Source of the DNA: Basfia succiniciproducens
GTDB lineage: Bacteria; Pseudomonadota; Gammaproteobacteria; Enterobacterales; Pasteurellaceae
Reading direction: 5' to 3'
Length of the DNA stretch: 64,000 nucleotides
NCBI RefSeq assembly: GCF_011455875.1
Contig: NZ_CP015031.1
Location: forward strand, 2,027,405 to 2,091,404
Shown here piece after piece: positions 60,571-63,594 of this stretch. The notes beneath the pieces were generated by a model that worked only from the letters and a program-made list of their open reading frames with translations, was not told where the DNA came from and ran no database searches. The stretch's first letter is position 1; each line of letters begins with the position of its first letter. The position numbers and the translations under genes are program-made.

Positions 60571-61302
60571 CTATAAATCGCCAAAGCAGAGCTGTAACGC
60601 CGTGATTGCTACTAAAGACGCGGTTTCCGTGCGTAATACCCGTTTACCCAATAATACTTCGGTAAACCCCTGCCGTTCCGTTTGGGCGATTTCCTGCGGA
60701 GACAGCCCGCCTTCCGAGCCGATTAATAAACGTACCCCCTCGGCGGGAATGTCAGGCAGTGTTTGAATGGAATATTTAGCGCGCGGATGTAAATTCAATT
60801 TCAGCATACCGTCTTGTTCGGCGCACCAATCCTGCAATTTCATCATAGGCCGGATTTCCGGCACTATATTGCGCCCGCATTGTTCACAGGCGGCAACGGC
60901 AATTTTTTGCCATTGTTGGATTTTTTTATCCATTCGCTCCGCATCCAGCTTTACCCCGCAACGTTCCGACCACAAAGGCGTTATCACGTTCACGCCCAAT
61001 TCGACGGATTTTTGAACGGTAAATTCCATGCGTTCGCCGCGAGAAATTACCTGCCCCAAATGGATTTTCAGATGGCTTTCTCGGTCGTCTAATTGACAAT
61101 CCCGGATTTCCGCCGTGACGGATTTTTTATCCGCCTGAAGAATAACCGCAGTATAAACATGATTACTGCCGTCGAATAATTCAAGTCGTTCGCCCGCCTG
61201 CATTCTCAACACGCGCCCTACATGATTCGCCGCCTCGTCAGTTAAACGACAGGTCTTAATATTCGTTAAAGAATCCGGATGATAAATTCTGGGAATTCGC
61301 AT
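60571..61302 (-). CDS. rsmE: 16S rRNA (uracil(1498)-N3)-methyltransferase
   Basis: SPOUT-class methyltransferase acting on the 30S subunit. The 243-residue protein begins [12 protein letters not shown], has an N-terminal PUA-like domain, then [19 protein letters not shown] and the knotted SAM site with [14 protein letters not shown] and [11 protein letters not shown]. It is monocistronic. The 250-bp gap to recO has one uptake signal (61441) and a repeated TAGAATAT motif, and probably the recO promoter. Confidence 0.96.
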
Positions 61303-61554
61303 AATTTCTCATTAGTAAAAAAGCAATGGCTTATCATAACAGAAATAAAAAGAAAGTTCTGTATTCGTAGTTCCGTGAATCCTCAATAACCTGCTTGAAT
61401 ATTTGTGTTTAATATAGATTCTAATGATTAAAATAAATAAAAGTGCGGTAGAATATCTGATAGAATATGTCAGTTTTCCGGCAAGCTTGATTTACTGTGT
61501 AAGCGTTCTCGGAATATACATAAATCCTAGTGTTAATAAAAGGGAGAAAAGGCT

Positions 61555-62265
61555 ATAGAAAACCTGCAGCGGGGTTTTGTGTTACACCGCAAACCTTATA
61601 GCGAAACCAGTCTGTTAGTGGATCTGCTCACAGAAGAAAGCGGACGATTAACCGTTCTTGCAAAAGGGGCAAGGGCTAAGCGCTCTGCATTAAAATCTGT
61701 TTTGCAGCCTTTTACGCCGTTATTGTTGCGCTGGACCGGTAAAAGCAGCCTTAAAATCTTAACGAAAGCGGAACCCGCCGCTATCGCCTTGCCTCTCCAA
61801 CAAACGGCGCTATTCAGCGGCTTTTATGTGAACGAATTAATCACCCGAGTGATTGAGCCGGAAACGCCGAATCCGCAATTATTCCAGGATTATTTGCATT
61901 GTTTGACGAGCCTTGCGGTATCGCAGAATTTTGTCGAACCCGCTTTACGGGAATTTGAATTTAAACTTCTGCATATTTTGGGATACGGCGTGGATTTTCT
62001 CCATTGCGCCGGTTCCGGCGAGCCGGTAGATGAAAATATGACTTACCGCTACCGTGAGGAAAAAGGCTTTATCGCCTCCTTAATTAAGGATAATTTAACT
62101 TTTTTCGGACGGGAACTTATCGCTTTCGAACGGCAGGATTTCAGCGAAAAATCCGTATTGCAGGCGGCAAAACGCTTTACCCGAGTTGCCTTAAAGCCTT
62201 ATTTAGGCAATAAACCGTTGAAAAGCCGCGAACTTTTTACTCAGACTATTTTACATTTGAAATAA
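61555..62265 (+). CDS. recO: DNA repair protein RecO, apparent AUA start
   Basis: RecF-pathway mediator that loads RecA on SSB-coated DNA and anneals strands. Residues [20 protein letters not shown] match the family N-terminus. The family's initiator position, M-E-x-x-QR-x-FVLH, is ATA here (61555-61557: ATA GAA AAC CTG CAG CGG). The frame has a stop at 61537 and no ATG, GTG or TTG until GTG at 61579, which would remove the first eight residues. AAGGGAG lies eight bases before the ATA, ideal spacing. From ATA the product is 236 residues. The GTG or the CTG at 61564 remain alternatives. rlmD follows six bases later. Confidence 0.88.
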
Positions 62266-62271
62266 TTTGCC

Positions 62272-63594
62272 ATGGTTTTACTTTATACACCTCCCCAAAA
62301 AATAAATAAGCTCCAACGAGAAATGGAAGTAGAGATCCTCGATCTTGATTATCAAGGATTAGGCGTGGCAAAAATTCAAGGAAAAACCTGGTTTGTTGAA
62401 AACGCGTTACCGGGCGAGAAAGTTCGGATTAAAATTAAAGAAGAAAAACGCCAGTTCGGTCTGGCAACAACTAAAAAGATCCTTGAGGCGAGTGCGCAAC
62501 GGCAAACGCCGAAATGTCAGTATGCGTCTCAATGCGGCGGTTGCCAAAATCAGCATATTCCCGTCGAAATGCAACGGGAAGCAAAACAAAAAGCCTTATT
62601 CCGACGGTTATTGAAACTGCAACCGGAAGGCATTGAATTTATGCCGATGATAGTTGGTGAAGCTTTTGGTTATCGCCGCCGCGTGCGCCTTAGTATGTTA
62701 TTTGACGGAAAATTGAAACGATTAGAAATCGGCTTTCGGCAAAAAAATTCCGCCCAAATCGTTCATATTGAGCAATGTGAGGTGATTGAGCCTGCGTTAA
62801 ATAAAATTCTGTCAAAACTGACCGCACTTTTATCCCGTTTTTCTCAACCGAAAAATCTTGGGCATATTGAATTGGTCGCAGCGGATAACGGCGTTGCCAT
62901 GTTGTTGCGTTACAGTGGAAAATTGACGGAAAACGACCGCACTTTACTGTTGGATTTTGCCGTTCGGGAAGAGCTAATGCTTTTTTTACAGGATGATGAA
63001 AAAACAGAACAAATTTACGGACAACCGCCTTTCTATCAATTAGCGGATAACCTGCAATTACAATTTGATATCCGGGATTTTATTCAGGTCAACAGCCTAT
63101 TGAATCAGCGGATGATCACCGCAGCGCTGGATTGGCTGGACGTACAAAAACAGGATCATGTGTTAGATCTGTTTTGCGGTATGGGAAATTTCACATTGCC
63201 GTTAAGTCGACGAGTAAAAAGTGCGGTCGGAATTGAAGGAATTTCGGCGATGGTGGAAAAAGCCAAAGCAAATGCCGAACGAAATCAATGTCAAAATGTC
63301 CAATTTTATCGTGCTGATTTAGATCAGAATTTTGCAGATGAAGTCTGGGCGACAGAGCCATTTAATAAAATTTTACTGGATCCGCCTCGAACCGGTGCCG
63401 CATTTGCGCTGAATGCACTTTGCCGGTTAAAGGCGGAAAAAATTCTTTACGTATCTTGTAATCCTGCGACTTTGGTGCGAGATGCGGAGATTCTATTAAA
63501 CTCGGATTATCGGGTTAAAAAAGTCGCAATGATTGATATGTTCCCCCACACGGGACATTTGGAAAGCATTACACTTTTCGAAAAACAAAGTTAG
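62272..63594 (+). CDS. rlmD: 23S rRNA (uracil(1939)-C5)-methyltransferase
   Basis: RumA-type enzyme forming m5U1939. The 440-residue protein has an N-terminal TRAM domain (about 15-75), 4Fe-4S ligands C82, C88 and C91 (with a fourth cysteine near 166), the SAM motif VLDLFCGMGNFTLPL and the catalytic cysteine in YVSCNPATLVRD. It precedes relA by 12 bp, the same pair as in E. coli. Three uptake signals lie inside. Confidence 0.96.
   Translation: MVLLYTPPQKINKLQREMEVEILDLDYQGLGVAKIQGKTWFVENALPGEKVRIKIKEEKRQFGLATTKKILEASAQRQTPKCQYASQCGGCQNQHIPVEMQREAKQKALFRRLLKLQPEGIEFMPMIVGEAFGYRRRVRLSMLFDGKLKRLEIGFRQKNSAQIVHIEQCEVIEPALNKILSKLTALLSRFSQPKNLGHIELVAADNGVAMLLRYSGKLTENDRTLLLDFAVREELMLFLQDDEKTEQIYGQPPFYQLADNLQLQFDIRDFIQVNSLLNQRMITAALDWLDVQKQDHVLDLFCGMGNFTLPLSRRVKSAVGIEGISAMVEKAKANAERNQCQNVQFYRADLDQNFADEVWATEPFNKILLDPPRTGAAFALNALCRLKAEKILYVSCNPATLVRDAEILLNSDYRVKKVAMIDMFPHTGHLESITLFEKQS

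Follow-up and report, generated by a model that had tools for sequence, protein, structure and literature searches.

Where can translation of the DNA-repair gene recO begin when its reading frame offers none of the canonical start codons ahead of the conserved N-terminus of the protein? The question is raised by a stretch of 64,000 nucleotides of Basfia succiniciproducens DNA, analysed here as a whole (the window) and taken from a genome of 2,253,194 bases, in which the codons from 61555 read ATA GAA AAC CTG CAG CGG GGT TTT, followed by GTG at 61579. An ORF lister limited to ATG, GTG and TTG can begin recO no earlier than this GTG, giving 228 residues, and a preliminary description of the DNA had proposed that the gene starts at the ATA. 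We find that recO indeed appears to begin at AUA 61555 and that AUA, AUC or AUU, collectively AUH (H = A, C or U), stands at the homologous site in many relatives.

The recO start region in the window

The region is laid out as follows:

60571–61302, − strand: rsmE, divergent upstream neighbour with an ATG start (NF008690, 439.4 bits)
61537–61539, + strand: in-frame TAA read from the sequence, closing the frame upstream of the ATA
61540–61546, + strand: Shine-Dalgarno site AAGGGAG, predicted pairing with the 16S 3′ end −8.4 kcal/mol
61555–61557, + strand: ATA, proposed recO start codon, opposite Met1 of E. coli RecO in the alignment, initiator Met expected
61555–62265, + strand: recO coding sequence, 236 amino acids counted from the ATA
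61579–61581, + strand: GTG of Val9, the earliest canonical codon in frame and not accepted as the start
62272–63594, + strand: rlmD, downstream neighbour with an ATG start (NF009639, 560.9 bits)

What had been described for this region holds up. The ATA that homology marks as the recO start and the TAA upstream of it are both present, reading the frame confirms that no ATG, GTG or TTG lies between TAA 61537 and 61579, and the AAGGGAG is separated from the ATA by 8 nt (61547–61554). The codon just 5′ of the ATA is GCT. Read from the ATA, the protein is identified as RecO by NCBIfam TIGR00613 (166.6 bits against a cut-off of 48.7, residues 5–230 of 236), with the RecO_N and RecO_C domains both matched, and phmmer aligns it with E. 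coli RecO (PDB 3q8d) at an E value of 2e-91, query residues 2–231 falling on chain residues 2–231. The two proteins thus match one for one from residue 2, which bears out the residue-for-residue N-terminal alignment claimed earlier. When the protein is trimmed to GTG 61579, the RecO_N Pfam score falls from 76.3 to 68.2 bits. A gene finder limited to ATG, GTG and TTG begins this RecO eight residues late.

AUH codons and gene context in Pasteurellaceae

We surveyed 140 Pasteurellaceae genomes, one per species, and read the 5′ region of recO in all 139 that carry the gene; these cover 43 of 43 genera, and the exception (G006) is a genome that is 81% complete. In 34 of the 139, the stretch that runs from the stop as far as residue 8 contains no ATG, GTG or TTG, and all but one of the 34 carry ATC, ATA or ATT at the homologous site, the remaining genome (G039) having ATT two codons earlier; this pattern is beyond chance. 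Two odd N-termini were re-anchored, which added G084, where a TTG lies three codons 3′ of the ATC, and shifted G039 by two codons. The resulting strict set, in which the AUH is not preceded by any canonical codon after the stop, comprises 35 of the 139 genomes from 13 genera (30 ATC, 3 ATA and 2 ATT). Thirteen further genomes have ATC at the site plus some upstream in-frame ATG, GTG or TTG (the ambiguous set), and the two sets together make 48 AUH genomes of 139, in 17 genera. The other 91 were counted as canonical, including six of g13 in which ATT is preceded by GTG at −6. All counts given here are weakened by the relatedness of the genomes.

In the nearest relative, the sister species P. 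bettyae (G001; RecO 86% identical), ATA stands at the site and GTA takes the place of GTG 61579, and ATA is likewise found in G138. Named records with ATC belong to Aggregatibacter, Avibacterium, Necropsobacter, Conservatibacter, Volucribacter and Pasteurella, together with one Rodentibacter caecimuris record; of these, all from Pasteurella and two from Aggregatibacter fall in the ambiguous 13. Across the family, the sister species thus shares the ATA, most AUH relatives have ATC and two have ATT, and this conservation of a non-ATG codon at the homologous site supports the reading of an AUA start comparable to the AUU of infC and pcnB, as put forward in the preliminary description. The spread over a large part of the family, AUC as the commonest form, and the association with a lack of era upstream and with an upstream promoter motif go beyond that description. 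One of the recO loci lies on a record titled Pseudomonas stutzeri NCTC11607 (CABDVE010000001.1, L014); its recO is 80% identical to the window RecO, and the title looks wrong.

The neighbouring genes served as a control in 58 loci (L002–L059, some genomes in twice). ATG stands at the aligned start of rlmD in 55 of 56 loci and of rsmE in 7 of 7; the one exception, the rlmD of G127 (L046), reads ATA-ATG, its ATA aligning with the Met of the others and its ATG following one codon later.

An Era match, defined as a tblastn match within the 1.2–1.5 kb fetched upstream and not always the adjacent gene, precedes recO in 36 genomes from 15 genera, and AUH is found in none of the 36. Upstream of recO in the window lie two further elements:

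61441–61449, + strand: AAGTGCGGT, Haemophilus-type uptake signal core, by sequence match
61458–61466, + strand: TGATAGAAT, putative extended −10 promoter element, by match to the consensus motif

In 42 of the 48 AUH genomes the promoter motif TGNTANAAT lies no more than 150 nt before the start, where shuffled sequences lead one to expect about 1.6 genomes. By group, it is present in 29 of 35 strict and 13 of 13 ambiguous AUH genomes, in 0 of 36 era-linked genomes and in 11 of 55 others; six of the 35 strict genomes are without it, and 11 of the 53 genomes that carry it have a canonical start. The distance from motif to start is 30–45 nt in the 41 other AUH genomes that carry it versus 88 nt in the window, and the promoter of the window may therefore differ. 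About 50 nt of the window leader (61467–61554) seem to be extra relative to the sister species. Since the segment 61474–61600 is no more stably folded than its shuffled versions (z −0.08), we claim no RNA switch in the leader. The sequence AAGTGCGGT, which we take to be the core of the Haemophilus-type uptake signal, lies in either orientation within 200 nt upstream in 28 of the 48 AUH genomes.

In one genome each of g18, g21 and g38 (G057, G071 and G116), genera that are probably Haemophilus-like, recO follows a few bases after a small ORF, and the gene before that ORF in G057 has an OapA domain; recO starts in these three genera are GTG or ATG. In G131 (L072) an ORF ends 9 nt before recO in an arrangement resembling theirs, the start still being ATC, and G131 may possibly represent an intermediate state. 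Beside its intact gene, one g21 genome also holds a decayed second recO-like copy with 66% identity and four stops (G081:C1:1263922-1264635).

A tree of RecO alone (quick method, LG+G4, 10 outgroups included), in which 53 of 143 inner branches are open and long-branch warnings were raised, needs no fewer than 10 switches from AUH to canonical starts or back. All 36 era-linked genomes are held in a 41-row canonical-start clade with 100% SH-aLRT support, and the recO genes of outgroups, read by eye in 19 of 20 loci, begin with ATG (17), GTG (1) or TTG (1). Our reading is that AUH may have arisen early with a move away from era and was followed by several returns to canonical codons, the tree being too weak to give the direction. 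The AUH start is not indispensable, as the switches on the tree and the canonical starts in G106 (ATG-ATC) and G085 (ATG) indicate.

Explanations for the AUA codon

We consider it probable that RecO synthesis starts at AUA 61555 with the ordinary fMet initiator tRNA, and that this start is a brake on RecO that was kept after the gene left era. The anticodon would pair with the A and U of the codon and mismatch its third base, and the Shine-Dalgarno site would position the ribosome on the AUA. Such a weak start would act at the level of translation, keeping RecO levels down where the gene is served by a separate promoter. Its probable origin is that recO left an rnc-era-recO arrangement and gained an extended −10 promoter of its own; AUH, mostly AUC, would then have been retained through many genera, as proposed for E. 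coli pcnB. IF3 accepts nothing but Watson-Crick pairing at the first two bases and rejects weak pairs at the third (PMC10158994). Because IF3 disfavours third-base mismatches, it should influence the yield of RecO.

The AUH codon could also be used as a start and yet be neutral, ATG having been lost, an adjacent Ile codon having sufficed since little RecO is needed, and drift having kept it, low expression being under no selection. In the era-linked clade, several genomes (eight of g2, three of g17, G070 and G083) have ATG-ATH-GAA here; AUH might thus once have been the second codon, left in front when the ATG was lost, and the repeated changes between AUH and canonical codons on the tree also suit drift. 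However, AUH persists in 13 to 17 genera though a single substitution restores ATG, and Met itself stands at this site in 8 of the 10 tree outgroups. Moreover, compared with internal Ile codons, AUH varies less in its third base and has C there more often: the 43 ATC, 3 ATA and 2 ATT of the 48 AUH genomes require 4 changes on the tree, versus 11 and 7 for two conserved internal Ile codons in the same genomes, and within recO ATC is used for 118 of 388 internal Ile codons. With two Ile sites as the control and relatedness still in the figures, this pattern points to constraint on AUH as a start, and we regard drift as an unlikely explanation.

Both of these explanations place the start at the AUA; a start at GTG 61579, or at another downstream canonical codon, would leave the first eight residues unmade. 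In the window, recO offers no canonical codon earlier than GTG 61579, and codons 2–4 vary in residue among relatives. Against such a start, GTG is found at the Val codon in just 17 of the 43 AUH genomes compared and is otherwise GTA, GTT or GTC (G011–G013, G082 and G084 were omitted from this codon comparison for their odd N-termini), and in relatives the next canonical codon is found 33 (G001), 34 (G051), 49 (G052) or 156 (G105) codons downstream. The nearest canonical codon downstream of AUH is reached after 8 to 49 codons in 34 of the 35 strict genomes and after three in G084; the predicted Shine-Dalgarno pairing before it averages −2.7 kcal/mol versus −2.3 in shuffled sequence, which is little enrichment. 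Before the AUH of the same 35 genomes the mean is −5.9 kcal/mol versus −1.4 shuffled, with 34 sites at −4 or lower and one weak.

Coding constraint bears on the same choice. Over the nine codons after AUH, pairwise comparison of the 43 genomes gives 3576 synonymous and 513 nonsynonymous differences. All of the nonsynonymous ones fall in the first three codons, where they exceed the synonymous (513 versus 304), and protein constraint is therefore plain only from the fourth codon after AUH. The QRGF codons, which lie between AUH and the Val of the GTG alternative, show 1971 synonymous differences and 0 nonsynonymous; coding constraint is thus plain between AUH and that alternative, the first three codons excepted. 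For the eight in-frame codons that precede AUH, an ungapped comparison gives 320 synonymous versus 6195 nonsynonymous differences. For the window, GTG 61579 is rejected on the QRGF constraint, the variability of the Val codon, the Shine-Dalgarno pairing and the distance of canonical codons in relatives, and we hold a downstream start to be very improbable.

The codon preceding AUH takes 11 forms across the 48 genomes, among them ACA, TCC, GCT and GGC, and in G052, G099 and G100 the AUH is one codon away from a stop. In 21 of the 48, ATC or ATT also occupies that preceding position, and in those genomes either codon of the tandem is a candidate start.

The true start might conversely be an upstream canonical codon, with AUH as an internal Ile codon, and the 13 ATC genomes of the ambiguous set do offer such codons. 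Most of these have a poor Shine-Dalgarno score, the exceptions being G097 (TTG at −18, −6.8 kcal/mol; GTG at −27, −4.7 kcal/mol) and G020 (GTG at −201, −11.7 kcal/mol); TTG stands at −6 in G087 and G088, and the GTG at −6 in the six g13 genomes would serve in the same way. Against this, a stop with no canonical codon before AUH is found in 35 genomes including the window, where TAA 61537 excludes an upstream canonical start, barring sequence error. The ATG or TTG at −12 in Pasteurella (four genomes) and g16 (two) is part of the Shine-Dalgarno sequence TGAGG and is absent from the same-spaced G108, G051 and G052, and codons beyond about −40 would precede the predicted transcript start. Taken as the general explanation, an upstream start is scarcely credible.

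An assembly or base-call error in place of a real ATG, from which ATA is one base away in the one genome of the species, is hardly to be entertained, being rejected on the ATA of P. bettyae and G138 and the ATC or ATT of 45 other genomes.

An out-of-frame ATG combined with frameshifting was also set aside: a short out-of-frame ORF runs into the ATA in G001 and none lies nearby in the window, so that frameshifting is not general.

Other genes with known or proposed AUH starts

To our knowledge, few bacterial genes have AUH starts, and elsewhere in bacteria rare inefficient starts hold proteins at a low or regulated level. E. coli pcnB was reportedly found by Binns and Masters in 2002 to be translationally limited by its inefficient AUU start. 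It shares with recO the use of an AUH start; it differs in being another gene, and in recO the codon is mostly AUC or AUA and is known here from sequence alone. A second comparison is infC, whose AUH start with a Shine-Dalgarno site is likewise shared, but which is autoregulated by its own product, and here recO differs: we know of no role of RecO in translation initiation.

infC starts with AUU in E. coli, with AUA in S. aureus and with ATC in Streptomyces, and IF3 discriminates such starts (PMC9410913, PMC13009471, PMC5472188); the first of these papers names only infC and pcnB as having AUU starts in E. coli (PMC9410913). In S. aureus, AUU and AUA starts reduce reporter output, and ccpN (AUA) and cvfC1 (AUU) have conserved non-canonical starts with extended Shine-Dalgarno sites that limit initiation (PMC13009471); these two were found by initiation profiling and tested with reporters, whereas the recO start comes from comparison of sequences. 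Streptomyces sigR resembles recO in its non-canonical start, which is repressed by IF3 (PMC5472188), but its GTC departs from ATG at the first as well as the third base, and the gene encodes a stress-response sigma factor.

AUH starts as such are thus already known, and recO as a conserved user of one is new as far as the open-access papers listed by our searches go, among which we found no earlier report of a non-canonical recO start. Its AUH start in at least 13 genera, with natural switches to canonical codons and an accompanying change of gene context, provides an evolutionary test of why a poor start is kept. After infC and pcnB, recO might be the third conserved gene of Pasteurellaceae to start at AUH, and this start might couple its synthesis to IF3 or to the state of the ribosome. 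In this naturally transformable group, initiation fidelity would then tune how DNA is repaired by recombination or how incoming DNA is handled; we put this forward tentatively and think it doubtful. Regulation of RecO through its start in response to a signal is speculation.

In the window and its strict relatives, recO combines the lack of a canonical start consistent with the protein, a suitably placed Shine-Dalgarno site and an AUH codon conserved across the strict and ambiguous sets, and infC and pcnB appear to keep AUH starts here, so that recO joins them. infC was found in 137 of the 140 genomes, and its start, read in this genome and the 30 best-scoring loci, is AUH in all 31 (27 ATT and 1 ATC by pattern parse, 3 ATT by eye). 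No canonical codon lies between the stop and the conserved core in 26 of these, and a GTG or TTG lies somewhere there in the other five. pcnB, read in this genome alone, opens with ATT-ATT (L220), and its next canonical codon is about 70 codons on. The same tandem ATT-ATT was seen at the start of many of the infC loci (L190–L219).
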